This document shows, in pieces, positions 4,904-58,391 of a stretch of 64,000 nt of DNA. A model generated the notes under the pieces. That model did not search any database. It saw only the letters and a list, made by a program, of their open reading frames with translations, and had not been told where the DNA came from. Source of the stretch: Pegea sp. RAD2-039. Taxonomy: Eukaryota > Chordata > Thaliacea > Salpida > Salpidae. Location of the stretch: assembly GCA_034620365.1 (NCBI GenBank), contig JAQGEQ010000380.1, forward strand, positions 1,240,001 to 1,304,000. Reading direction: 5' to 3'. Position numbers and translations under genes: made by a program. Numbering within the stretch: position 1 is the first letter of the stretch; each line of letters begins with the position of its first letter.

Positions 4904-7900
4904 ATATACTGATAGATAAGAAAAGCCACAGTTGGACTTATTCAGACACTACAAGTTAGTATTTTACTTTCTAATAAACTAGCTAAACACATTTATCTTT
5001 AATTTCTTTTTAAACTTATAATATTTTGATCTTTAGATTGCTGAATAGCTGCATAAAAGAGCTAATTTAACCGTACCGCAATCAGATTAATACTAAAAAA
5101 TATATTGTTTTTCTAAAACATTTTTTTACTTACCACATATTTATTTTATGTACAAATGCTTCACGTTTTAGAAAACTTATTTTTCTTACACCAAATTTGC
5201 TGCATCATTTGCTGTTTATCAATCTAGAGACTTGTAAATGGCTTAAGGGAGATGGTATTAATGAAGAAACAGATGACCACTGTAAAAAATGTGCAGGCAA
5301 AGAACAATCACCAGTAAATATCCAAACATCTATCGTAAAATCTTATGAACTCGTCTTACATGAATTACAATTTTCTACAACTTTCTCCAAAACTTCTAGT
5401 GGAACTTTAAGCAATAATGGCCATACAAGTACTCGATGTTTTTTCAAATTACTTTGATTCGCGAAAATTCATTCTCTAAGCTGTGTTAATTTCATAAATA
5501 CGAGCTTTTATTTACTAATTGTTCTATAAAATATTATTCTTAAAGTTGTTTACACACTTGGTCGAGACGATTTGACATTTAGTGAAGGAAGTAGAAAGTA
5601 TCAAGCCCTACAATTACATTTTCACTGGGCATCTGCTACTTTTAGTAATTTAAACAAAGACTTTGCATATCAAGGAGGATCAGAACATACTGTAAACAAT
5701 CAGCACTATCCAATTGAAGTAATCAAGTTAGTTCCACTGGCATATACACTTTATTTGATACTTTGTGTAGATGCATATAGTGCACAAGAAATTGTCTGGT
5801 GGAACTAGTGATGGTAGAGATGTTTTAGGTGTGATTGGTGTTTTTTTTGAAATTGCTAAAGACGAAGATACTGTGGTAAATGTTGAAGATGAAGAATTGC
5901 TGAAACTAACTTCCTTTTTTAAAGATGTTTCTTATGCAGGTTCTAATTGAGATTTATTGATAATAACGGTTAAGTGTCTTATAACATTACCATTTTGTAT
6001 GGAGCGCTATTATCTAAAAATTTAAATCAATAATGGCGCCATAAACTTTAAACTTAATACTTTAAAAATTTGCTGAATTTAAACATATTTTCTCAATTAT
6101 TTTTTGCAATCAAAAATTTGTTATCAAAAATTTTATTATCAAAAAATTTGTTATCAAAAATTTGTTATCAAAAATTTGTTATCAAAAATTTGAAGCAGGT
6201 TTCCTCAGAAGTATTTTTAAAGAGACAATATCACTGAGAAATTCGTGATTGTTTGACAGAAAATAAAAAAAAAATGTTTGAAGCTTTATTTGCTCTTTTT
6301 ATAAAAATGACGTTTTATTAGAAAAAAATTGAATTTATAGTCCTTACAATAAAACTCGTTTACAATAAAATTTGACGATCAGTTGTTCATAATCTATGAA
6401 TCAATTAGCGGACTAGATGCTACCTTGCTAACAAATAAGCCGTGACAAGTCACTTATATTATCTTGATAGATAAAATTTAACTTCAATCACTGTAATTTT
6501 TAAAACAAGAAAAATCATTTGAATTTTAGGAAACAAATTTGGCTTTTAAATTTTTTTTATTTCTAGAATTCTAAATTTTGATTTCAGCTAACAACAACTT
6601 TTTAACGAAAAACAAATTCTATAAATAATAATGATTTTATAGGTTTACAACATCACATCAAAGTTGGGCCAATATTAAGGAAACTTATTCCGGATACGTT
6701 GTCTTATTATCGGTATATGGGCTCGCTTACTACGCCGCCTTGTACTGAATCTGTTTTGTGGACAGTAATTAAAAGTCCTCTTATTATTTCGAAAAATCGG
6801 GTAAAACATTAGATACAACTATCTTGATATTATTTGGTAGCACTATCTAGTCTTTATAACAATGATAATCAAATGACTGTTAGTAAACTTTTAAACTGCA
6901 AAGCTAAATAATAAAGTTTGTTATTAGAATATTTTTGCAATATATAGATTACTGTTCCAGAAAAACTATACTTTAGTTATTTTTTTTTATCTAAAGCATT
7001 AAGTAAGTCAACAAAGAAATCACAACTGTTTTGAATTTTGAGAAGAAAGGTACTAGCTTACGTATAAGTAAATTAATTTGCATCTCATTTTTATTATTTT
7101 TTAAATAGGATGCAAAAATATTACAAAAATATTCAAGACTTCTTGGTTTGTTAAACATCAGATTTCTTTTATTTCAGTTTTTTGAATTTCAAAACCTTCT
7201 AAGATTTTCTTCAGTATCTGTAGAACCAGATAACAGCACACAAAAAACAGGTAATTCTTTATAGTTAAACAGTATAAATTACACACAAAGAACCTAATCA
7301 TTTATTGTAAGACCGATATTTTTGCCTTAGCAATGAAATCTAGTAAAATAATTAATGCTATTGATAAAGTTATAGAGTATCATAATAAATTGTTTTTGCA
7401 GAAAAACTGATCAATTCTCAAACTTGTCTTGCTGGCAACTATAGACCAGTACAAATGTTAAATGGAAGAACTATTTATTTTTACAAATCAGGTTACATTA
7501 GAAAAATAGTTAGGCTGAAACTAAACAATTTTTCAAGCAAAATAGCTTGTTGCGGTTAATTTAGTACTGTGTCCAACTATTTTAATCTTCGAAGAATTAT
7601 TATCTCATAGTCTAAAAATGGTATTTTTAATTAATTTAACTTTTTGGCACAAAACATTATGAATAGAAGCTTAAAGATTTATTTTTTCAAAGATAAAGAT
7701 TTATTTTACAAAACAAATTTTTAACATAGCTTACTGGATTATAGATTAATTTCATAAGTTATTACAAAATATTTTTAGTATTGTATTTTATTCAATTAAG
7801 AAAACCGACAAAATTTGTTTCACAAATATTAATAGCAACTTCATCATGGACAACTTTATTTTATGTGATCGCAATCATGACATCTGCTTTCATTCTCGTG

Positions 7901-19597: not shown

Positions 19598-21327
19598 TTA
19601 GTTAAATATTTGATTCACTGAGTCTGTTGCTGTCATTGAAGCTTTTGTATAGCAGCAATGACTTGTTGTCAATTTTCTTTTATTAATTACTAATTCAATT
19701 GGATTATCAACTCGAATTGATTTGAATTGCCATTTTTGCTCTTTTTTTATTCCGTCTTCATCTTCAACTGATTGAGAAGTTAGTAAAGGGTTAGGAATAG
19801 CAACAGTATCACCAATAATTACCCCACTACTCTGTAATTAATTCATAAAATTTATCCTTCAACCGAACACACAAACTTTAGTTACCTTGTTAAGATTGTA
19901 AACGCTGACAGCAAATACTAATGAGTCCTGATCCATAGCAATGAATGTAAAAGGTACGAGAGTTAGATGTGCCATATTAGAAAGCACTTTCATAGTAATT
20001 ATCTGAGAATAGAAATAGAAATAATTCCATCAAACTAGATATCAAGTTGATGATACTAACATTTCCAATATTTTTTCCTTCTTTTAAATCTTTTATTCTT
20101 ACATGATTCAAGTTGATTAGCTTTCCTTCATACAGAGCTCCGTCTGCATAAGGACCTTGAAAAAAATGAATTTTATTAACTGTAAAAAAGTGATTGTAAG
20201 ATAAGATCAAAACAAACCTAAATCTTTAGAAGAGAAAGACTTTAAAAGAAGTTGAATTTTACGGTTCTTTAATTTGCCTTTTTCTTTAATCAAACAAGTA
20301 ATATTATCAAGATAGTTAAGAAGTTGTTTGATTTTTTCTGAGGGGTCTTTCCACTCTGGGTCTAGTTTCGAAGCCATTCTCCAGCCTTCGAGAGCAAGAC
20401 TAAAGTCTTCTTTGTATCTAAGCAACATTTTTTAATAATTTTTTTAATCAATCATTTTAAATATTGATTTTTGCAAATTTTTACTGAGTAAAAGTCTAAT
20501 TGCTGCAAAAAGTTTTATTAAATGTGAAATAAACAAACCTATTAGCTTGAGCCCTGTTAAAGTGTAAGTCCGGGTTGTTTTTACAATCATTTTCAACAGA
20601 TTCTGCTTTGATATAGCAATTTAATGCTAGAGTGAGTACCTATGAATGAAAATATCAAGAAAAGTGATTTGTTGGAAATTTTAATTAAACAACTATCATT
20701 TATTACTTAAAATTGGAAACAAATTTATACAAGTTGAAATGAATATTAACAAACCTTAGAATTTTGACTAGTCATGAAGAACAGCGAAAGGTAGGCATTT
20801 CCTAACACATACCAGGAAACCCCATCAGTTACATCCAGTTCAACCGCATCTTTTGCACATGTTACACTTTCTAGAATACTCTTTTCATTGTCACCAGCTT
20901 TTTCTGTTTTAACTTGTCTATAAACCATCGATAAAGAACGTAAAGAAATTATATTTTTCTTTCTTTTTAAAGCTCCTTCAAAGCAATTTTTAGCAGCTAT
21001 AATATCAGCCTTTTTCCAAAATGTTTCTCCAAGCATATTCCATCCATCTATTAATGATGGGTCTCTCTTTACTACTTTTGATAAATAATCTTCACAATCA
21101 GCACTATATTCTGGCAGCACATTTAGAGTTCTTCCACATTGTAGTAAGTAATTAGTTTTGCTACAATTGGCTTCCAGTTTTTTCAGGGAAGCTAGAGTTT
21201 TTTGAACTTCATCATTGAGTAAAGTACGTTTTTGTGGTAATTTATCAATACCCATTTTAATCACAAAATTATCGTTCAGATCATAAAGATTATCAACTAA
21301 ATTCACTGCTTCCTTATCACAATTCAT
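19598..21327 (-). CDS. TTC5: Tetratricopeptide repeat protein 5 (Strap)
   Basis: In vertebrates TTC5 is a p300 and stress-response cofactor, and it recognises nascent tubulin at the ribosome for tubulin mRNA autoregulation. Minus-strand exons are 21327-20755, 20639-20539, 20417-20218, 20155-20061, 20002-19886 and 19831-19598, all phase-consistent, giving about 438 residues against 440 in human. TPR helices run from about residue 60 (DPSLIDGWNMLGETFWKKAD, AVELDVTDGVSWYVLGNAYL) to HFNRAQANRYKEDFSLALEGW and DPEW. The C-terminal OB-fold region includes VPFTF, FAVSVYNL and VIIGDTVAIPNP, the last a close match to the TTC5 family. The start at 21327 is the first ATG of a 573-base first exon. The gene is head-to-head with POMK. 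Confidence 0.92.
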
Positions 21328-21547
21328 ATTTCACTTTATATTAGCTGTAAATACGAAAGTTTATACAAAATATTTCATAATAATTATCATGGAACTGTTA
21401 AGACCACAAAGTGAGAATGAAATAATTGCTTAAAATTATAAGTTGATGAACAAGTTAGAGAAAAAGAATTCGAGCCCTAAGGCAACATTGAAAAGAATTC
21501 GACAAATTATTACTAAGAAGTAACTTTGTTAACGACTTCTTACAAAG
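21328..21547. promoter_or_regulatory. Shared promoter interval between TTC5 and POMK
   Basis: The start codons of two divergent genes lie 220 bases apart, so the transcription starts and core promoters must lie here and may be shared. No clear TATA box or CpG richness is seen. The function is inferred from the arrangement only. Confidence 0.5.
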
Positions 21548-23566
21548 ATGAATAAAAATATTTCATTAAATTTGATTTTAAAACGACATAGTAAGAATTT
21601 GATAATAATACTACTGCTAGGGTTTATGATTTATCTTCAAGTGACATTATCAAGTTGTCAAAAATGGTTTCAGGATAATTGTCAGTTATATAATTATTAT
21701 TTTTGTTTTTTTTATAATTGTTTTTTGATTTAGATCATGAAACGTATAAGTATTTGGATTCTGAAACTATCCAAAGTATTCTTACAAACGGAGCAACAGA
21801 ACAGGTAAAAAAAGTATACAATCAAGCTAATTAAAATTATTTATCATAAGACTTTAGTTAAATACAATAAAGAAATTCATTAAGCTTTTAAATTAAGGTA
21901 GATTAAGGCGAACTAATTGTGTTTATTTATCGATTATGACTTGTCTATATCAACAAAACTAGATAACTATTTATATAATTACCAGATTCATTAGTTTAAC
22001 TTAATTTTTCTTAATTTACATTTCAGAAAGAAACTTTTCACTTGGTTGAAGGTGTAGTAAATTATTCAAAGAACAGAACAACAGAAATTAAAGCAAGCAC
22101 AACCAAATCAGCAAGAAAAAGAGAAGATCTACAACAGACTGAAGATGTGAATAAAACTATCCTAACAAATATCACAAAAGAACAATCTAATGAACAGTGT
22201 GAAAAAGGATACTTTAAAGTAGAATCAATGAAGAAATGCCACAAGTGGTTATCATGTGATGAGATTACTAATTCATTGACACGTATGGATAAGATTGGTA
22301 GGGGAATAGGAAAAGAGGTAAACTCATTAAATATGCGTTTAATGTGCTAAAAATCTGTTTGAATTTCAAACAGAATCTAGACAAGTGTAAATAATTCTTA
22401 TGAAAGTTATTTTTCAGGCTTATGTTGTAAGATGGGACGACAAAAATATAACGTTTGCAATGTTAAAAACAAGACCAGTAAGAGAGGAAAGTTGGATAGA
22501 AGAGAGAGTAAAAATTGGTTTAAATAACTTGATTCATTTTCAACCAAGTCCATATTTTAATCAGGTGAATCTGATAAATCTATCATGTTATTTCATTCAA
22601 ATAAAATTACATAAATGAAGTCTTATAATTGAATATTTATATAATTTAATGAAATAAAATCTGCCTGATTTTAACTTATTCAAAAACTAGCTTGCAGGTT
22701 TCTGTATCAGGAATAAAAGTACAATAATAATAGTTGAGAATTGTGCCAAGTATGGTGATTTGAGATCATTTTATAGATCAGAAACATTTAAACAAACTTC
22801 TATGAAAAAACGTTTTGAAATGGTTTTAGATATTATAAATGGATTTGTTGAGCTTCATACTGATAAAATGGGGCCTCGAGTCCACTGTGATCTACATGAG
22901 ATATTTCAGGTAAAAATAATAAAATAACTTTTAAACAACCTTTGAAAAATGTTTAACAAAAAATATTAAAATGAAGGCAATGGGACAATATCTAGTGACA
23001 AATGATTTAAGAGTTGTGGTAAATGATATTGATGAAATTCCAATTAGTGACCCCACAAGGAACAAAACTGCAAGATGCAGGTGAATTATTAAGAATTGAA
23101 ATTTTCTAAAAATGTAAAAGCTGAAATTTCTTATAAAAGTAAAAACAGATTAATTAGTGAACTTGTAAATAAAAACCATTCAATTCAAAACTTCAAACAT
23201 TATTTCTAAAAATAATTTGTTAATAAACTTTTTTTTAATATTCAACAATGTTGTAGATACCTTCATGCTTGTGAGCCTTCAGCATTTTTAGCACCAGAAC
23301 AACAATATACAGAAGAAAATTGTTTAAAAAACTGGCCAAGGGGATACATTGGAATGAAAAAAGCAAGCCCCAAGTCAGATGTGTGGAAAATTCCAGATTT
23401 TATCAAAAAGATTTTGGGACTTACTAATAAACATCGATCATTAAAAGATGAAATGACAGAATTTTATGCAAATTGTAAAATCATAAATGAAGAAGATAGG
23501 TGGAACTCTACTCAAGTTTTAAAAGCTTTTACAAAAATATATGAAAAACATTTCAAAAATGAATAA
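21548..23566 (+). CDS. POMK: Protein O-mannose kinase (SGK196 type)
   Basis: Type II membrane kinase of the endoplasmic reticulum that phosphorylates O-mannose (C6) on the core M3 glycan of alpha-dystroglycan, a step needed for matriglycan. Exons are 21548-21680, 21734-21804, 22027-22317, 22418-22564, 22691-22909, 22977-23080 and 23257-23566 (424 residues; human 350). A signal anchor (LIIILLLGFMIYL) lies near residues 17-33. It is followed by a lumenal stem longer than in vertebrates. The family signature GYFKVESMKKCHKWLSC (residues 129-145) aligns with human GHFRIGQMKNCSPWLSC. Kinase landmarks: LAGFC, RVHCDLHE (catalytic-loop Asp281), VVNDIDEIP (metal-binding Asp304/306 region), FLAPEQ and SDVWKIPD. 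At exon 5 two acceptors lie 7 bases apart; only the upstream one (22691) keeps the frame. AATAAA follows at 23631. Confidence 0.92.
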
Positions 23567-24192: not shown

Positions 24193-24480
24193 TTATTCAT
24201 AAGAATAGATTTTAATCTTATGCAGGTCTTTATCTTTACACTCTCTATCTTTGTTATAGTAGTAAAAGGTGCCATCTTTACGTTTTAACTTCTTGACATA
24301 GCCTGGTTGAATTGTCCATCTCTCGGCTTCATAATTATGAAACTTTTTATATTCAATTTCATCACGATAACCAGCAGATTGAAATCTAAAAGCATTTTCA
24401 ACCTCTTCATTCCAATGTTTTGCTCTTTTCATTGATATTGGTTTTCCACCTTCTCCATGGCTAACTTTTGATGACATCAT
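24193..24480 (-). CDS. MEIG1: Meiosis-expressed gene 1 protein homolog
   Basis: A single open exon of 95 residues (human 88). In mammals MEIG1 binds PACRG and is required for manchette-dependent cargo delivery and sperm flagellum assembly. The conserved core is plain: AKHWNEEVENAFRFQSAGYR, then RWTIQPGYVKKLKRKDGTFY, YYYNKDRECKDKDLHKIKIY. It aligns along its whole length with the vertebrate sequence; the first 15 residues (a Gly/Ser stretch) are divergent. No intron interrupts the coding region. The neighbouring POMK gene is convergent. It suggests an animal with flagellated sperm or motile cilia. Confidence 0.93.
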   Translation of the reverse strand: MMSSKVSHGEGGKPISMKRAKHWNEEVENAFRFQSAGYRDEIEYKKFHNYEAERWTIQPGYVKKLKRKDGTFYYYNKDRECKDKDLHKIKIYSYE

Positions 24481-24689: not shown

Positions 24690-27410
24690 ATATAAAGTAT
24701 TATTTAAGTGTTGTAATTCTTAATGTTAGAAAATAAACTTATCCTTAAAACTGATATACAAATGATAAATCTAGAATGAATCTAAATAACTTGTTGCCAT
24801 AAAAACAATTTCTTTATAGACTCAAAGTCATGTAAAACATATAGAATATACATCAATAAGAAAAAATTAATTCATACAAGTAAAAAATAAAATATTAATA
24901 AATATATAATTCAAGAATTTAGCCAACACCTTCAGTTCAAGTCTAATAAGAAAAATAGAAAGAAGAAAAAAAGAAGTAATGGCAATAAGTATTTTAAATA
25001 TAATTAATAACATCTAAAAATAATGGTTAAACAGATAAATACTTTTTTTTATCTTTTTTTTTATCAAAACAAAATAACTAGATGATATTTGAGATAACAT
25101 TAAAATGTTTAAATTATTGTTTAGATCATAAATTCCACCTTAAGCTTATAGTATCTTAAAGTTTTTTTATTTCTAATAAAATAAGTTTAATAATCATTAT
25201 AATAATACAATAACAGATAAAAATGTTGGTAAATTATTAACAGTTAATCATAAAGTGCCTAAGTACTTTTCAAACGTTAAAAATTTGAACGTTATTTTGA
25301 ATAATAAGATGTTCGTCATTGTTGCTAAGACAAAACTGGTGGAGGGTTTACATACTTAATATGTGATTTTAGATCAAAAAGGTTTAAAACTTTATTAGAT
25401 AGTTGTAAAAATAATAACGATGTACTATCAAAATAATTATTAAATTTCTTACTTAATTATTTAAAAACCAGAAAATAATAATGTTATTATATAATATAAT
25501 CTATTTTTTATTGCGATATATTTGAAATTATTAGCTAGTAAATCAAGAAAAAAAAGTACTTTATAAACAATAGCAGTAGTCTTTATAAATGATTCAATTT
25601 TTAAAAGTATGGCTTAAAAAACCTACTATAAGCCTTATATTATCTTACTATTATCTTATAAACCATGGTTTTCAAAAATGTATATCGCTTATAAAAATAA
25701 GTAATATATAATTATACAATATGGTATAAAAGTATAAAATCATTTGATTACCAAATAAATACAAGTTAGAAGATTTTTGTTCCAATAACGCTTATAAGAT
25801 TTTTTAGACCAAAGATTATTTTAACAATATTATAATCTTAATGAATAACTGCATCTTATGATATAAGAAAACAATTAATAAGAACAAAATCAAATTAACG
25901 ATGTATCTGAACTTCTAAGACTAAGAAGTTTCATTTATCTTTACAACTTTTTCGATTGAATAATGAAATATGAGTAGAAACAGTGAAATGACTAGATAGT
26001 AGATTATTATCGACTTGTGTCATGTATTATTTGCTATTCACACATAAAGCAAGTGCATCTGTAAATGCAAAATAAATTAAATAAGAGTTTATTAGAATAA
26101 AATATTGTTTGCTACTCAATATTTTTCGATGAAACATGTATTATATTTAGGATTACTAAACTATCTCAGATATTTTTTAAAAGTTAAATGTTTATAACTA
26201 TCTACCTGAGTAAAGAAAATTGTGCAAAAAAAAGCAAACCATTACACAAGCGTTAATAAAAAATAAATTACTTTTTTTCGAAATGCTAGAGTTCTGTAAG
26301 TGAAAGAAGTATGCAGGACTTTATGCTGCAATAAGTACAAATTACTTTTTTATATCATAAGCAACTTACTTTAAATGTATAAAATTGTTTTTTTTTAAAC
26401 AAAAGTTGCAAATGAATTATTCGTGTAAAAATAACAGAATGTTTAAACAATTTATATTTTAAGGTGCTTCAAAAACTTTAGTTTCATTAAAAAATCATAG
26501 AACATAATTGTTAAAAATAATTGATTTTTACAAAAATGGTAATCTACTGGGATCAAATTAAAATTAAATTTATTATTCAACTTCTTTAAATAACATAATA
26601 GGTAAAAGTTTGTACTAACACAAATTAAATTTGAAATTTTTTGGTAAAATTGTTATTGGTTATTAATTCATGAAAAGAATTAAATTAATCTTTCACTAAT
26701 GCCTATATAATGTAAAAATACATACTAAGGTTTATCAAGTTTTAAATTCTATGAATTAATCTTAAATTGAAAACAAAATAATTCAGCACAATTTTAAAAT
26801 TAATTTAAAATAATTTAAGAAGATAAGAAAAGCCTTGCAAGCAAGACTAAAGATAGTTCAACATTAGAAACTATTCTATTTATATCCTGACTAAAACTAC
26901 ATATATATTTATTTATTAAATTTTCTTTAATTGAACCTAATTAGTAAATAGAAGGTAACTATTTGTATGAATCAAAAAATTTGTAAAAATGAAATAAATA
27001 AAAGGTGGTTGCTTTATGCTTTCAGATTTCTAACTTTAACGATTTTAACTTTCGGCTCAATTCAACTTCATGAATAATTCAGAGAAACGTCGAACACATA
27101 TGGCCCTCACTTTTTTTCAAATTGTTGCTGAAGCTAGCAGATGCTACAAATTATATTGCTTTGTTACCGAAAAGTTTATAGATAGAAAGACTTAGAATAG
27201 TTTTTTTCTGATTGTGCTAAGAGTTTAATTTGCTTATTTTTATGAATATTTTAATTTTTTTTAAATTATAAGTTTTGATGTTGTATGAAATTATACAATT
27301 GAATAAAAAAGATGACATTTTTATGCAATAATGTTTTTTGAAATTTATTTACACTTTTTGAAATCTATATTTGTATACGATGTGTATTATCTAAATAGTA
27401 AAATTTGAAA
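24481..27410. other. AT-rich intergenic stretch
   Basis: About 2.9 kb without a supportable exon. It starts with the MEIG1 5' flank and contains a (TTTA)n microsatellite at 24655-24687. If the eMIC gene downstream has more 5' exons, they could be hidden here, but none was identified. Confidence 0.55.
24655..24687. repeat. (TTTA)n microsatellite
   Basis: About eight uninterrupted copies of TTTA. LINE copies in this window carry similar (AATA)n tails, so it could be the relic of such a tail, although no adjacent LINE sequence is recognised. Confidence 0.85.
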
Positions 27411-29770
27411 ATGACAATTCAACCAAACAAAAGAGACTCCACACTATCCAGCAGGTTTTTCGAGCTTGTTTCTTTATATTTTAAAGAAATACTTATTTTT
27501 TAACTCTCTGCAATAATCAATATTATTCATTTTTCGTCATAACTATGTTTATTTATTTGGTAAAAAGCCTCACAAGCAAAGTTTATAGTTTATTTATTGG
27601 TAGAAATATTTATCAGATGTTCTAATGAAAGTAGATAATGCTTCAATAGATTTTAGTTTAAAAAGTATTTAGCAAACGTCAATATGTAATGGTGAAAAAT
27701 AAAACTCTTTTAAACTTTAATCATATCATATCTATCTTCAGATAAGTGAATAAACTTTAATAATAATAAGCTTTCAAATTAAGAATTAATTTTAAAACAC
27801 TTTCTTAATTTTTATGCATTAAACTGCATACAAATAAATGGATCATGATTAGTTGAAAATAAAAAGTTTTTGTTTGCTATGCAGCAGAAAACAATATCCG
27901 TTACCTGATCTTTAAGAGTAAGCCCTCAATAATCTAGTCATATGCATCAAAGTATACTTACATTATTGGGGCATTAAAGATTTTTTTCCATCTCTTGTCA
28001 AATACTCTAAGATACAAACTTTGCTTTACTGAATGGTTTTCATTTGTCATATAGAAGTCCTTTACAAGCCGTTGTACACATTTTTGAACCTAGTTGTAGT
28101 TCTATTCAATTAATAGAGAAGCTATACTGTTATTGATTTTGAATTCTCATTTTGATCAACAAGGCTTTTATGAATTTTTACACATAATTTGATATTGATA
28201 TTAAAGTTTGATATTTTACTTAAAAGACAAAAAGAAGTTTTTGTATTACAGACTCAATATGATCACAAAGATTAAAAAAGTTGCTTAAAGCATGAAATTA
28301 TCCAACTATACAAAATGGCTTTTTATTATAGTAATCCGTGAGATATCTTAAAAAAGAGAATGTAAAGCAAAAATATAATAAATCATCTTTTACGAGAAAA
28401 ATGCTTTTTCTCGTTTATTAATGAATAAAGCCATAAAGGTTAACTGAAAGTGATGAGACAACGTTTTGTTTAACTTCAATTGCTTAATGTAGGGTCAGCT
28501 ACAACAGCTCGTTGTACGTAAGCAGTTCACAGTTTGACCCTTGACTGACTTGCTTTATTACTCTGGTCCTTTCTCAGATACTTCTCCAAGAATATTAATT
28601 TCTTTAAAAAGATTATTATAGTATTATTACTGAACTAACGGTAGTGACTAGATGAAAATTTCATTTTCATCTACCTTTATTAAAAGCATATTTTTAAATT
28701 GACAGAACATCAACTAAAAAAAGATCACGTAAAAATTCAAAATGTTGTCAAAAGTGCCGAAAAAGAAGAGAAGTAAACATCTTTTTGAGATCATTGTCTA
28801 ATACTTCCCTTAATCATTAATTAAAAGAACATTTTTAGAATTATTGCTGGATGATCTAATTTTTTTTATTATGATACAGAAAAAGCTTGAGAAAAAACGT
28901 GAAAAAATGAACAATTGTACAAAAGCAGGGAGCAGGTAACATCATCCACAGAGTTTAGATAGAAGTGTTTGAAGCTGCTTATTTTTACAGATCAAGGTCT
29001 CGATCCTGGACACCATTTCGAGAACGCTCTCGAAGCATTTCAATACCGATAGATCCAAATAGAACATCTCCATCTTTTCTTGAAGTTCGTCGAATTACAA
29101 GGTTGGTAAAGTGACAACATCTGTTTTAACTTTGTGATTTTCAGGTTTTTGTTCTTTAATTTGTAAGATATTTTTTATGAGTTTGAAATAATCTATTTAG
29201 ATTTATCTTTTTATTAGTGATTGCAACCATTTTCATGTGATCTCATTTTCTAATGTGTATGACCCCCAAAAATAGTACAAATTAAATAAAAATTCAATCT
29301 ACTCTTTATGATAAGTGATCATTTAAGCTACCAGTTTGATCTTGATTATCAAGATTGTGATAAAAAGTTTGAAATCTCTCATACTTTGACTCCAAGCTTA
29401 AAAGTAATAAATAAAAATCATTAAAGATGATTGTGTTTAATGTGGAGTTATAAATTTGAATTATTAAATCTTAAATTTATTATTAAACTAACAAAACTAG
29501 TTGCTTAATGTTTAAAATAAATTTAGAAAATACTTAAAAAGTCATCATCAAAATCATTTACGAATCTCATAACAATTTGTGATTAGAAGTAATAGTTTTA
29601 ATAAAATTAAAAAAAAACTTTAAATATCGTTAAACAGTTGTAATTTGTTGCCTGTAGATTGCCCTATTCAAGTTAGAAATTAACATTGTTTTTTTACGCG
29701 CAGTGCTCGTAAGCTTCCTATTCCATACCGACGAAAATGGACTAGTGACGAAAATTCCGAAGAAAATTAA
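27411..29770 (+). CDS. eMIC-domain protein (Srrm234 / SRRM3-SRRM4 type), compact
   Basis: The eMIC (enhancer of microexons) domain of SRRM3/SRRM4/Srrm234 promotes inclusion of very short, mostly neuronal exons by acting with early spliceosome factors. Exons are 27411-27454 (ATG), 28706-28772, 28880-28935, 28991-29101 and 29704-29770, all phase-consistent, giving 114 residues. The C-terminus reads SRSRSWTPFRERSRS, then SPSFLEVRRITSARKLPIPY (exon junction inside RITS), close to the vertebrate SPSFMEPRRITSARKRPIPY core. Before it is a short Lys/Arg-rich region (KKRSRKNSK, KLEKKREK) with CCQKC. AATAAA follows at 29780. The first exon is tiny and assigned only by its ATG and matching phase. Srrm234 genes usually have an N-terminal Cwf21 domain, not seen here, so either upstream exons are missing or this is a stand-alone eMIC gene. 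The eMIC call is strong; the 5' end is weak. Confidence 0.82.
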
Positions 29771-30561
29771 TCTCACTTAAATAAAGCTTTAATCTCTTCA
29801 CTAGTCATCTTAAGATCAATTTTGTATCTTTATCACTTTTTATGAACATCAAATTTTTTAAATTTGAAGATTTTTTTCAATACCATTATTAAATGTTTCG
29901 ATTTTGTTATGTGCCGTGTTTACATTTTTTATTTGTTTGCTTAAAAAAAAAATCTTGTAATAAAATATATAATAAAATTGAATGAAATTATAATAACTTT
30001 TTTCGTTTATAGTCTTTTTTAAATTTAAAATTACTTCAATTAAAATATAGAATTCAAAATACTCATAAAGTGAAAATATTTGAAATGAAAATTCAACTTT
30101 TAGTTGATAAATAAATCTCTACTAAACCAGTTATTCTTGATTGACAAGTTAATCAGCTAAAAGAGAAATTTTCACATTTTATTTAAAACTTTTCTAAATA
30201 AGTACTTATTTCAAATCTACAAGATGACTACTAGTTCAAATTTTAGTCACATCTATGTCTCATATCTTTTCTACTTCAACTGTATAAACCGCTGGTTTTT
30301 TAATCTGTCCAAACAAATTATCGATCTTTTGATTTTTGTTGTATTTGATGAAGGCTTGCATGGAGTAGTACAAGCTACAAGCAGTCATTTAGTTTTGCAG
30401 CAAAATGTAGAAAGAAGAAATTGCAAAAGTTTAACTCAATAAGAAAAAGTAGAAAAATAAAAAGTGAAATATTGAAGTCACAAAAATAAAAGGTTTTCAA
30501 CGACATGTAATGAATATAGCTTTTACAAAAGACAAATTTGAAGAACATTTTAGAATAGAAG
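29771..30561. other. 3' flank of the eMIC gene and intergenic DNA
   Basis: AATAAA at 29780-29785 lies right after the eMIC stop. A 72-codon + strand frame at 30224-30442 (starting MTTSSNFSHIYVSYLFYFNC) has no recognised homology and no clear partner exon; I do not call it a gene. Confidence 0.5.
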
Positions 30562-32329
30562 TTATTTTTGTATCAACTTTATCAGCTTTGCTTTATTTTT
30601 TGATTTTAACATTTTTGCACAAAATAGCATCACAACAAAAAGAATTTTCCATTTTTTCGTTTTACTTTTTTCTTTCTTTTTTTTTACAACGTATGTTTGA
30701 TTGTTAGTTATTAATAAATGTAAGTAGTCCTTCCAATTCAAATCATACTCAGTTTTCTTGCACAAAGACATACTATCGATTACAAAAGAAGATTTATCCA
30801 TTGGGCATCCTCCCCTAGGCTGAGACACAAACTTGCAAATGAAATACTTTCCAGATTCAAAATGAAAAACAGCTTCGGGTACAAAAGGTGATGAAAAATG
30901 AGGAATTAAAGAAGAGATGAATGTAAACTGCCATAAAGATCGATGAAAATTAGCGTTGTTACGAGTTATACTGAGAGCAAACCAACAAGAGTTATTAGCA
31001 GTGTTGTTGTGACTTTGCTTTTCATTGGAGGAATCAGCATAGTTAAAAGTCTTTAAGACACACAAATCTTTTTTTAAATGATTATCTTTACTAAGTTTCA
31101 AATACAAAATGAAAGGTTTAGTGGTGGTCATGGGAAAAGGTAAAGAAGAGAAAAGTATTAAAGAGTTTTCAGAATCTATTAAACACTTTTCAGCAATAGA
31201 GTAAATAAAACAAAGTTGAATATGAGTATTTGTAAGAGAAGTGACTTGTAGTTTGTTACTTGGCAACAAAACTTTATCAGATGATTCTTTTATCTATTAA
31301 AGAATTAAATCAAATATTATTAAAAGGCGAAATTGTTTTAAATAAAAGCTGAGAAATAAGTATAAGGCATTTTGAACTTTCAAATAATATTACATTGACC
31401 AATTAAACCAACTTTTAAACTTAATAATCAGATTTAAGATAACTTCTGATCACAAAAAAACAACATTTTTACTTTAAAGTAATCAAGATTATTAATTTAA
31501 CATTTTAGACCCACATTAATTTCTAAAAGATCATTATTATCATTTTAAATCTAATTTTGTATTTACTTAGCAATGTTTATTTATTTCCTTATAAATTCAT
31601 TTTTAAGTTATCCTTATTATTTACAAATAAAAAAAAGTTTTGAAATTATAATTTAAATATAATCCTTAAATTACTTGATAATCACAATTCGAAGCATCCA
31701 GAAGAAAAGATGAAGAACTTGAATTATCTTTAGAAAAAGTATCCTTTAGACATGATTTAACAAGCTGAGAGCATTCCAAAGTAATTATTTGTTTATTAGG
31801 ATCAACATCAGGTTCTAAACTTCCTTCTTGTGGATTCTTTTCATTAAATGATAATAAAATCTGAAAGTTTAATATAACTTAAGACTTTTACATAAAAAAT
31901 TATAAAACTTTTTTCAAAAGAGCGAAAATTTGATCACAATAAAATATTTATAGTGAAAACTTGTTTTAATTATAAATATTTCACCTTAGTAGTATTATGA
32001 AATTTGTGATATAACTGTGATGACCAAGCTCTTAAAAAGAAGTCTTCAATATCATTTAATTTTCTTGAAACATATCTCTATTAAGAAAAATATATAATTA
32101 TAATTTGTAGAAAATTAGCAAAATTAGAAAGTAGATAATTGGAAGAGATATTTTTACCTTAGCAACAGATTGTGGAATTATTGCGTTGGCTAAAGGTGTT
32201 AGAAATTTATTCTGAATCATTTTAAAGCTACTATCAATTTTTGCTAAAGATAAGAAAGTCTCCAAGTTTGTAATTAATTCCATTTTGCCCCAAGATGTAA
32301 TTAATCTTCTTGGCAAAATCATTTTAACA
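30562..32329 (-). CDS. Unrecognised multi-exon gene
   Basis: Four minus-strand exons splice in phase: 32329-32158 (ATG at 32322), 32077-31985, 31860-31675 and 31293-30562, giving about 391 residues from the internal ATG. All introns are short (80-380 bases) with good GT-AG sites. Exon 1 includes RRLITSWGKMELITNLETFL, exon 2 the motif FFLRAWSSQLYHKFHNTTK, and exon 3 is Ser/Asp-rich. The large last exon has alternating hydrophobic stretches (SLWQFTFISSLIPHFSSPFV, FHFESGKYFICKFVSQPRGG) suggestive of a beta-rich fold. It ends with a Lys-rich tail followed by a hydrophobic stretch and a second Lys run. No signal peptide is evident. I do not recognise the family and assign no function. Exon 1 begins one base before a codon, so an upstream exon ending in phase 2 may exist. 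Confidence 0.6.
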
Positions 32330-32553
32330 CTAAAATGTTTCCTTCAAAAAATTATTAAATATTGAAATTAAAAAAAAGTTAAAGAATTTTTATGCAGAGT
32401 TATAAGAATTTTAACCAAAAAAATCCCAATTACTTGATCAATTCTACTGTATGAATTATATGAATTAATAATAATTGTATGAATTTAACTGTTGTGAAAA
32501 ATTGAATAAAATTTAGTGTATACAAATGATAATTTTATAAAATAAAAAAAAAA

Positions 32554-54021: not shown

Positions 54022-57000
54022 TTATTTAATTGAGTTGAAAAATTTCCAACTTAAAGTACATATCACCAAAGTGACTAATATTGAAGGTCTTAGCTTAATT
54101 GAAGCGTTGATAAGTTTCTTTTTCTTATTTGTAAGTTTACTGTTTTCTTTACTTTCTAGCTTGTTCCCACATCTCAAAGGACTTGTTGGAGGAGATTTCC
54201 ATTGATCTGGCTCACCGACTTGAAAAACTAGAGCCATTCCTAAAAAAATATGAAGTTGAACTCAATAAAGAAATTCATCATCAATAATCATATTCAAAAT
54301 TGTCTTTAAGAATCAAACTTTATTAGTAAGTTTTAGCAGTATTTCTCTAATCATTTAATTTGCATAACGCTTAAACAAAAATGATTTGGATCTTTTACCA
54401 TCTAATGTTTAAAACTTTAAAAATCTTTTAACAGATTAATAATATTAATAAAACTATTTTTTCTCTTACCATGTTCCAAATGAAACACAACATGACAATG
54501 AAACAGCCACAACCCCTGGTTGGTAGCTCTGAATCTAACCACAGTGTAACCAGCTTTTACTGCTATTACTGTGTCCTTAAGAGGAGGATTATCAAAATTT
54601 CGGTTAATTTCACCGGAACTGTAAATCTCTTTCATCCTTTGATCAGAAATTTTTTCATAAACTCTATAAAAGAAAGGAAATTGAAATATGTGAGTTTTAA
54701 AAGTACATGTAAATTTCAAACATACTGCTTTTGAGCTACAACTGCGTAATATTGTCCATGTAAGTGCATTGGATGAGAAGCGTAAACATATGTTCCTAGA
54801 TCATACATAACTAGTTCGATCAGCTGATTATATTTTAATTTTAATAAATGAACACAAGGAACATGCTGAAAAACAAGACAGTTTTAAAATGATGCTTTTT
54901 ATATCATCTAGAAATACTGATTTTACATTTTTGTCTTTGTTAAATGTCGGTCTATTGGTTGAATTACAAAAGTTGTTCTCACTATAACCTTGAGATTGAA
55001 CCAGCAAAGGATGGTTAGGAAACTTCCAAAATAGTTGGTTGATTTGTGAACGATAAGAACCACTTTTTGACTAGATTAATAAAGCTCTTATATAAGTGTT
55101 ATAATAACCTCACTTTGAAAGTTTACAATTGAGTTGTTATAAAATTAAAAAGACTAAATAATAAGAATTATGGTTTTTAGTTGAAGACCTTAGTCAACGT
55201 TTATTAATTTTACTTTCAAACTATTTTTTAGAAAGCAGTATTTAAACTGCAATTTACTTTAGTATATCCAAGCCCAAGAAATAAAACTTGATCTGGTTTT
55301 CCTGAAATGTTATATGGCTTGTATTTTTCTTTTCCAAATGATTTCAGCTCATTAATATATATTGGATCGGAATATTTTCCATTCCGTAAAGGATTTAAAA
55401 TTGACTTTGAAATGCCGGCTTTTGAAGTTGGTTTACCGGTAAGATTCAAGTTATTGTATCTGCATCGATTATTGATATATTAAACTAATTTTTGAACCTA
55501 AAATCTGACGCCTTATCTATTTTATTTTTTAATTATGATGATACTTATTTCTACGCTGAACATATAATATATTGAGATTTGTTGAGTAGCAACAGTTATG
55601 TTACAAGCCAATATTACTTTAGACATTAGCAGATCACCTGAGTATTGCTCTTTGAGATAAATTTGAACAATCTTTCAATCCTTTGACTCTAATCCAATAG
55701 GCATCATTCGGCTGATTTGCGTTTAAAACAAAATCATATCTTTCTCCGTTGAAAATATTTAGTGTATCTACCTGTAAAAAGTGTTTTAGGAATAATTTTA
55801 CATGAAAAAAAGAATTATATTTTTACAGTTTTAATATTAAGATAAAAACTTCGTTTTCAAAATAGTTTATTAGCTTTGAAATTTATTTTGATATTTGAAT
55901 GGATGAAAAACTCTACAGATTTAAAATGAATTACAAAACGTTTCATTTTCAAATAAAGGAAATAAAGATGTATATACTAAAGTGAGTATTTAAGCAAGCA
56001 GTTTTATTTATCATACAAATATTCTGGGTTTATTAAGATTTATAATCTCACAGTTTTACCTATCAACTTACTGTAACAGGGTTTATATCATACCCATCAC
56101 TCGATATAACTGTCAGATTATGTTGATCAATGGAAATCTAAAAACAAAAGTTAGTTTTTATGATTCTTAGAATTAATTTTTACCTTATTATATTAATTAC
56201 AGCATTTGCAATTTATGTAAAGTAATATACTATTCATTTACAAAAAGGTTTTATTCATATAAAACAAAATAATTTATTGAATTCAATCTTATACATTTTA
56301 TCTGGTAGTTTCGAATTTGCGAAACAAGTTATATAAAAAAAAAGATAAATAATTGTATTCAGATAGATCCTGTTACCTACCTCAATTGGACAAAAACCAA
56401 CAGCACTGTTTATAACTCGAAAACGATACCTTAGTCCTTTCTCGACATTAAACTCACTTAATCTTGTGTAAATAGTAGATCCATTTATTACAAATTTCTG
56501 TAACGTGACAAAAAGTAGTAATATTTTAAACATTATATAAATTATAATTATGATTTACAAAACATATTTAATCTTCAAAACGTAAACTTAACATGAATAC
56601 ACAACCTTAATTTGTCCTTTCCCGTTGAGTAGAATTCCTTTTTTATGTACATGTTTTGAACCTAAATATCTCTTTAAGGTTGTTTCATCAGTCCAATCGA
56701 TTATTATAAATACAAAATCTTTAGTATCTGAAAAAATGAATTTTAAGAAAACATTAATTTCTTGCGTGATTCACCTCACAAACCTATGTCATAAAGATTA
56801 CGATGCTTGTTGGTTTTATTACTTTCGCGAACTATTAATCCTCCAAAAATACCATCTCCTCTTTGTAAACCAACATGGCTATGCCACCAATGGGTCCCTG
56901 AATTGAGTAACCTAAGTTATTAACAAGTGATGATTTATTTATTTTATTACCAGATGGTTGGGCTGTAAAGTTGTATTGCATTGTGTTCATTAGAGGTATT

Positions 57001-58391
57001 GGACACTGAGTTATCATTGGTACTCCATCCATAAAAGGAGTTTCTCTTTGAAACTGTCCGTGCCAATGAATTGTTACTCCTTTTCCGTTTATCATAGAGT
57101 TTTGAACATTCACAATCACCTGATCGCCTTCACAAACCTTTAGTTTGTAAGTTTAGACAAATAAAAGTATGTGTTAAATTTTAAATAGACTTGCAAAGAA
57201 AATTTGAACTATTATAATAACATACAGCTATCTGAAAGTTTTACTTAAATTACGAAATATTTTTCTAAATTCGAAGAATACTGTATGTACGTAGAGATTA
57301 AATATAAAAGCAAAAATTCCTTTTAAAAGTAATTTCATATTTGCTTTCATTAGGTATGTGCTCTTTTTTTGAAAGAACGATTTTCATTGATCAAAGTCTT
57401 TACTAACGAGTATACGCAGCAAGCCAGTCTTCAGATCGCCTTGTAAGTATATTTTAGCTTTTTTTATCTTTGTTGATAAAAATTTTCTGTTTCTAAGATT
57501 AGTTTTATGCTTGAGATGTAATGTTTGAATCTTGGTTTTAAATTGATATAAACAAAACAACAACAAAACACTTAAAAATAATATTGTCAATAAATTTGCA
57601 GAGTATCAAATTGTTAAGCTCAAATTGCTATAATAAAAAATTACTTTTATCAAATTTTAAAAGAACAGAAAATCCTTTAAAGATTTGAAACATTAATTTA
57701 GTGATTGTGAAAATTTATCGACTAAAATATTTATATTAGAAAACTTTATTTTATGTATGTTTAGTTAATTCAACTTATGTTATCAGAACAGTTTTTAGAA
57801 AAAGTATAATTGATTCTATTTTAAGAAAACGCATTTTTGAATAAAGTTAATTAACTGATTAAATGTGCTCTGATAAATATTTATAAGTTTAAAAAGTGTT
57901 TATTAAACTCTTTTGAGGTTTGTGGAGCTGAATACATCTCTTTATATCAAACAATTATTTATTTAGAACAATATAACTAGAAAATCATCAATTCACCACA
58001 ATAGTTGGACCAGGAATTTGTCCATTGACTACAGTGACAACTTTTTCAAAGCCACCTGCTGAAATGCAGCCTTCTTTTGAACAATCAGTTTTATTAAAAG
58101 GACAATTGCCACAAGCTTTTGACATCGTTGTAAATCTGCATATAATTGATGATTGAAAAAGTTTAAAATTTAATCAATAAACAATTTACTCTTCAATTTG
58201 AAAGTTATAAGTACAAGTCCTTGAAAGTCCTGTGATGCATTCTCGGTCACATGATGATTTATGATGAGGATGAGCTGCTAAAAAAGTAGTTTATAATATT
58301 TTCGATAAAGACAGAAATATTACTGACATGAAATTTCTGTTGATGTTAAAATAAGTAAAATAAATCGCCAGCAATTGAAAAATATCATCAT
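54022..58391 (-). CDS. Laccase-like multicopper oxidase, secreted or membrane-anchored
   Basis: Oxidises phenolic or metal substrates with reduction of O2 to water, extracellularly. Fourteen minus-strand exons: 58391-58328, 58277-58190, 58135-57997, 57137-56951, 56897-56784, 56727-56606, 56497-56381, 56137-56072, 55771-55638, 55459-55258, 55070-54927, 54865-54726, 54663-54470 and 54239-54022, all in phase (642 residues). A signal peptide ([17 protein letters not shown]) is followed by a Cys-rich block ([20 protein letters not shown]) typical of animal laccases, and [10 protein letters not shown]. All copper ligands are present: HWHG (121-124), HWWHSH (162-167), HPMHLHG (490-496) and [12 protein letters not shown] (561-572), with Met572 as the axial type-1 position. 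After the last cupredoxin domain comes a Lys-rich linker (NKKKKL) and a C-terminal hydrophobic segment ([16 protein letters not shown]), suggesting a membrane or GPI-type anchor. Physiological substrate unknown. Confidence 0.94.

Follow-up and report, generated by a model that had tools for sequence, protein, structure and literature searches.

The window analysed here is a 64,000-nt stretch of the genome of the tunicate Pegea sp. RAD2-039 (C6:1240001-1304000 of a 105.7-Mb assembly in 387 contigs), in which a small gene with an eMIC domain is predicted on the + strand. The gene model comprises five exons of 44, 67, 56, 111, and 67 nt, separated by introns of 1,251, 107, 55, and 602 nt, all with GT/AG borders and compatible phases. 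The joined exons give a coding sequence of 345 nt including the stop codon, which encodes a protein of 114 residues; borders, phases, and the open frame were checked in the sequence and agree with the preliminary description of five in-phase exons with their own ATG. The features of the gene are as follows.

27411..27454, + strand: putative exon 1, first coding exon with the ATG start (coding score and match of the donor to U1)
28706..28772, + strand: exon 2, K/R-rich, with a consensus-like acceptor (ttgacag) and the donor gtaaac (coding score, 4.4 bits)
28880..28935, + strand: exon 3, in which the SRRM_C match begins (PF15230, from residue 41), with the in-frame Met47
28991..29101, + strand: exon 4, first part of the eMIC core (...SPSFLEVRRITS; PF15230; genome search, E 1.8e-17)
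29704..29770, + strand: exon 5, second part of the eMIC core (ARKLPIPY...), 13 residues, and the stop codon (PF15230 to the profile end; genome search, E 7.8e-8)
29780..29785, + strand: candidate poly(A) signal AATAAA, 10 bases 3' of the stop codon (pattern scan)

The eMIC gene and its surroundings

The 114-residue protein matched the Pfam profile SRRM_C (PF15230) with 39.8 bits (E 7e-10; cut-off, 27) over residues 41-104, corresponding to profile positions 14-67 of 67, and the protein from Met47 alone reached 44.7 bits. To exclude a match due to the R/S/K composition, the reversed 114-residue sequence and nine shuffled ones were scanned as decoys, none of which (0/10) matched SRRM_C at E<=1. 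The C-terminal eMIC core noticed earlier is thereby upheld, and the predicted protein is assigned by its profile score to the eMIC/SRRM_C family (PF15230). A search of solved structures with the 114-residue protein gave no match at E<=10, and NCBIfam gave nothing for it. The "minimal RS content" ascribed to the protein does not hold, as its 114 residues contain 20 Arg, 18 Ser, and 15 Lys; only a long RS repeat is missing.

Besides the candidate poly(A) signal, further AATAAA copies were found at 29959 and 29971 by the pattern scan. A short way downstream, the opposite strand carries a 243-residue open frame with further frames (30562-32343, -), the former showing no Pfam match at E<=0.01. On the upstream side, a gene for a TPR protein (19859-21330, -; TTC5-like by eye, with weak TPR matches below the cut-offs) and a kinase-like gene (22015-23566, +; POMK-like by eye, with a weak PF07714 match below the cut-off) were recognised, together with the meiosis-expressed gene MEIG1 (24193-24480, -; a single open frame matching PF15163 with 124 bits), which is located between the kinase-like and eMIC genes. 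MEIG1 is the sole recognised gene between the end of the kinase-like gene (23566) and exon 2 (28706). Farther away, the window contains a carbonic anhydrase exon (5071-5454, +; PF00194, 34 bits) and a multicopper oxidase gene (54420-57152, -; PF07732, 71.6 bits for the exon 56838-57152).

The 5' end of the gene

For the coding score, 33 long frames totalling 21,291 nt served as the training set and 152,500 nt of other DNA as the background, both drawn from 280 kb of 10-kb stretches. Putative exon 1 scored 6.0 bits; of the 1,087 segments of 44 nt (stop-free and overlapping) between 24.5 and 28.6 kb, 0.28% reach this value. Its donor (CAG/gtttttcg), which is devoid of the usual AG at +4/+5, forms a U1 duplex of -5.6 kcal/mol, with 2.9% of 170 GT sites being equal or better. 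Among 16 ATG exons that are phase-compatible with exon 2, five have a U1 energy of -3.5 or better, and putative exon 1 is the second of the 16 by this measure. An in-frame TAA starts 12 bases 5' of its ATG with no AG between them (by eye), so that the ATG at 27411 would be the earliest possible start of this exon. Altogether, putative exon 1 is a plausible first coding exon.

The coding test is discriminating for exon 3 (7.5 bits, reached by 0/702 segments) and exon 4 (9.5 bits, 0/72), and less so for exon 2, the score of which is reached by 4.7% of 446 segments; exon 5 (-0.3 bits, reached by 23% of 446 segments) is not distinctive. Since two true exons of the model (2 and 5) fail to rise above the background, short exons can go unnoticed in this test, and a short upstream one could likewise escape it. 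In the region upstream of exon 2, the longest + strand frame (24.5-28.7 kb) is of 59 residues and is not R/S-rich. The gap holds 107 stop-free AG-GT internal candidates, the best of which has 6.1 bits and a weak donor, in comparison with 24.7 for the neighbouring kinase-like gene. The scan of 24.5-28.69 kb thus yielded no convincing further exon and no recognisable long coding exon, with the proviso that short ones could escape. As to the possibility raised at the outset that long upstream exons were missed, such exons were not seen in this region, and the part that survives is that a short 5' exon may have been overlooked.

The genome also contains repeats of an ascidian-type spliced leader. 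The 16-nt spliced leader reported for Ciona is ATTCTATTTGAATAAG (PMC7986045). A search with the last 15 bases of this leader followed by GTA, allowing up to 2 mismatches, gave 281 + 191 matches, whereas the reversed pattern gave 28 + 42. Among the matches listed, 48 were exact, 33 of them in one tandem array of leader and donor (C4:1134846-1142203) with a period of ~199 bp; one repeat of the array has the full Ciona leader followed by GTAAGT. The Sm motif reported for Ciona (AGCUUUGG; PMC7986045) is absent from the 81 bases covered in one such repeat, and hence the repeat does not simply correspond to the SL RNA of Ciona; a GGAG...CTCC hairpin is visible by eye in the 3' part of the repeat. 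Spliced-leader trans-splicing appears to be in use in this animal. On the strength of this leader, the animal was judged most likely to be a tunicate of ascidian type, and a rotifer origin was rejected. The bdelloid spliced leader had given 0 matches with up to 3 mismatches allowed, a weak test by itself, given that an EST study of a monogonont reports no leader (PMC1925144). A search for COX1 (PF00115) gave no match from which to read the mitochondrial code. The conclusions on the eMIC gene are based on the genome sequence and do not depend on this assignment.

Genome-wide distribution of eMIC and Cwf21

A six-frame search of the whole genome with PF15230 gave nothing at E<=0.001, and 14 control genomes likewise gave nothing; the search missed the eMIC gene described above because its introns cut the domain into exons. 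When the last two eMIC exons were used as protein queries (E<=10), this locus alone was found, both of the two candidates having been scored, in a search that could miss a strongly diverged second eMIC copy. The six-frame search with PF08312 (Cwf21) gave one match in the genome (C262:748276-748404), which was rejected as the missing partner of the eMIC domain, as its surroundings look like U2SURP by eye (frames resembling RRM, SURP, and CID, together with an RS tail). With the N-terminus of human SRRM2 as the query, a match was found from C101:269031 onward and on no other contig at E<=10, revealing the following gene, which the PF08312 search had missed because of an intron inside the Cwf21 domain.

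C101:269025-271383: Cwf21 gene (SRRM2/CWC21-type) with its own start and stop, and AATAAA at 271473

The 5' part of this gene is interrupted by two introns and followed by a large last exon, with the frame ending at 271380 and the stop codon at 271381-271383. Its first 170 residues matched human SRRM2 (residues 3-160) with 161 bits and PF08312 with 46.3 bits; the full 753-residue version gave no PF08312 match at E<=0.1, perhaps owing to its biased composition. Both the YNGIGL...GTNGY N-terminus and the Cwf21 domain of SRRM2/CWC21 are present, and the gene is, as judged from these sequence matches, orthologous to human SRRM2. The closest approach to an eMIC domain in the surrounding 30 kb (C101:255001-285000; tblastn with the 114-residue protein) had an E of 2.1. 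Conversely, tblastn of the 64-kb window with the first 170 residues of the C101 protein gave a best E of 0.81, which is not significant. The whole-genome check for a Cwf21 gene elsewhere, as had been proposed, therefore located one on C101 with no eMIC in its vicinity, and the earlier statement that the eMIC gene contains no Cwf21 agrees with the search of the window. Both loci are well inside their contigs (C6, 4.27 Mb; C101, 0.53 Mb).

Several other loci were noted in this genome. Two posterior-type Hox homeodomains are located 22 kb apart on opposite strands (C235:97000 and 119160), their closest solved structures, behind a chain that contains two engrailed homeodomains, being Hox-B13 and Hox-A9, which is consistent with a chordate but not decisive; in the ascidian Corella, Hox12 and Hox13 are reported on one scaffold (PMC7337526). 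Four clustered homeodomain matches on one strand (C44:190952-193963) are ZFHX-like by position, and the genome as a whole gave 53 homeodomain matches at E<=1e-6 among 150 candidates scored. Two near-identical open frames resemble, by eye, enzymes of the D-cysteine desulfhydrase/ACC-deaminase type.

Interpretation of the locus

In non-vertebrate bilaterians, one Srrm234 gene is reported as the ancestral state (PMC10551640). Srrm234 (Drosophila CG7971 and the amphioxus pro-orthologue) combines Cwf21, an RS region, and eMIC in one gene with eMIC as an alternative last exon, yielding a Cwf21 form that serves as a general spliceosomal protein and, via the neuronal last exon, an eMIC form; in flies, eMIC is confined to neurons through this last-exon choice (PMC8797185). 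The eMIC domain is reported to be necessary and sufficient for neuronal microexons (PMC8797185; PMC13281805) and to act via U2AF and SF1 (PMC8797185). The gene model described here resembles Srrm234 in its C-terminal eMIC domain (PF15230), and differs in that Cwf21 is in the same gene there, whereas here none was detected in the window and Cwf21 is on another contig, and in that the model is of 114 residues, the scan of 24.5-28.69 kb having shown no long coding exon. Vertebrate SRRM3, which has eMIC at the C-terminus (PMC10551640), differs in having a cwf21 domain (PMC4459148), none being detected for the eMIC gene in the window. The related SRRM2/CWC21 family, represented here by the C101 gene, has Cwf21 without eMIC and is thus the complementary half of the eMIC gene.

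The nearest precedent, which lowers the surprise, is vertebrate SRRM4 (nSR100). Human SRRM4 is a long RS-rich protein of several hundred residues that is not known to carry Cwf21, and has an RS tail after the eMIC core. In both cases the eMIC function has a gene to itself and Cwf21 appears to be lacking, and the eMIC cores share 23/43 identities, as counted with a stretch of SRRM4, whereas only 13 residues follow the core here. A query for the SRRM4-type N-terminus found no match in the 64-kb window at E<=10, in a search that short exons could escape. The view that this regulator is simpler than described is overstated to that extent: SRRM4 offers something of a precedent for an eMIC protein that lacks Cwf21, though at several hundred residues it is much longer than the present model.

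We consider that the locus is best explained as a single-copy, stand-alone tunicate eMIC gene, uncoupled from the Cwf21 gene on C101 and working as a separate small RS-type protein (probability about 0.6). The SRRM_C score over the cut-off with silent decoys, the single eMIC locus, and the complete-looking Cwf21 gene elsewhere argue for this reading, as do the coding score of putative exon 1 and the confined territory of the gene, bounded by the kinase-like gene (+) and MEIG1 (-). Weighing on the other side are the atypical +4/+5 positions of the exon 1 donor and the scope of the searches; six-frame searches miss intron-split domains, as seen for PF15230 here and PF08312 at C101, and a diverged second eMIC copy could have escaped. 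The free-standing eMIC factor of the preliminary description is borne out in part, as regards the separate Cwf21 gene and the lack of a recognisable long coding exon in 24.5-28.69 kb, its start at 27411 being putative.

The gene could, on the other hand, be incomplete at its 5' end, with more upstream exons encoding a protein that is longer and resembles SRRM4 in lacking Cwf21, and with the 27411 exon being wrong or an alternative start. This is a possibility to be taken seriously, albeit a doubtful one: human SRRM4 makes such a protein realistic, short exons can hide from a coding test that misses exons 2 and 5 of this very gene, the gap offers the 107 internal candidates mentioned above, and the donor of a second ATG exon (26967-27004) is just as good as that of exon 1. 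The good coding score of exon 1, the short longest frame in the gap, and the SRRM4 N-terminus query speak against it. It is improbable that the spliced leader is joined straight to the acceptor at 28706, leaving exon 1 unused and translation to start at Met47 (28907), which would give a bare eMIC protein of 68 residues. The leader repeat of ascidian type in the genome and the higher SRRM_C score from Met47 would suit this arrangement, but an out-of-frame ATG occurs earlier in exon 2 (by eye), and exon 1 scores as coding.

Two further explanations dispense with a functional stand-alone gene. The shortness of the protein and its 13-residue tail after the core might indicate a decaying, unexpressed remnant of the eMIC end of a former Srrm234 gene; with four of the four introns keeping GT/AG borders and phase, the frame open throughout, and the eMIC core well conserved, we regard this as very unlikely. 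Hardly credible is that the C101 and C6 loci are rejoined, either by trans-splicing into one Srrm234 message or as one gene split by misassembly. The apparent use of spliced-leader trans-splicing and the fact that the contigs are not chromosomes would allow it, but the C101 gene has its own stop codon and AATAAA, and neither locus is near a contig end.

If the gene is stand-alone, the predicted protein would act as the eMIC domain does elsewhere, contacting U2AF and SF1 and promoting the assembly of spliceosomes at neuronal microexons; given the reported sufficiency of eMIC, a gene that encodes hardly anything more could do the job alone. Restriction to neurons would then be exerted by its own promoter and transcription instead of last-exon choice. 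Either the fission of one Srrm234 gene or a duplication followed by complementary losses may have produced the split. The spliced-leader repeats could supply the 5' end of a new gene, which makes fission easy to imagine, but they do not count as evidence for it.

The eMIC domain and its function are known; new, as far as we have seen, is a gene reduced to eMIC with Cwf21 in a separate gene. In the portions of the literature covered (eMIC domain/tunicates and microexons/Ciona/Srrm), no tunicate eMIC gene is described, and the 2019 study that defined eMIC may treat tunicates. We tentatively suggest that tunicates, which are the sister group of vertebrates, may have completely separated the microexon activator from the general spliceosomal protein, leaving a bare eMIC protein under its own promoter. 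This bears on the way in which the neuron-only control of eMIC shifted from the choice of last exon seen in flies to the separate genes seen in vertebrates: if the suggestion is true, the change from last-exon to transcriptional control described for vertebrate Srrm3/4 would have arisen in parallel in tunicates, or before the two groups parted. The gene would also be a natural minimal microexon activator, which would directly test the reported sufficiency of eMIC, and would provide a very small protein for biochemistry.
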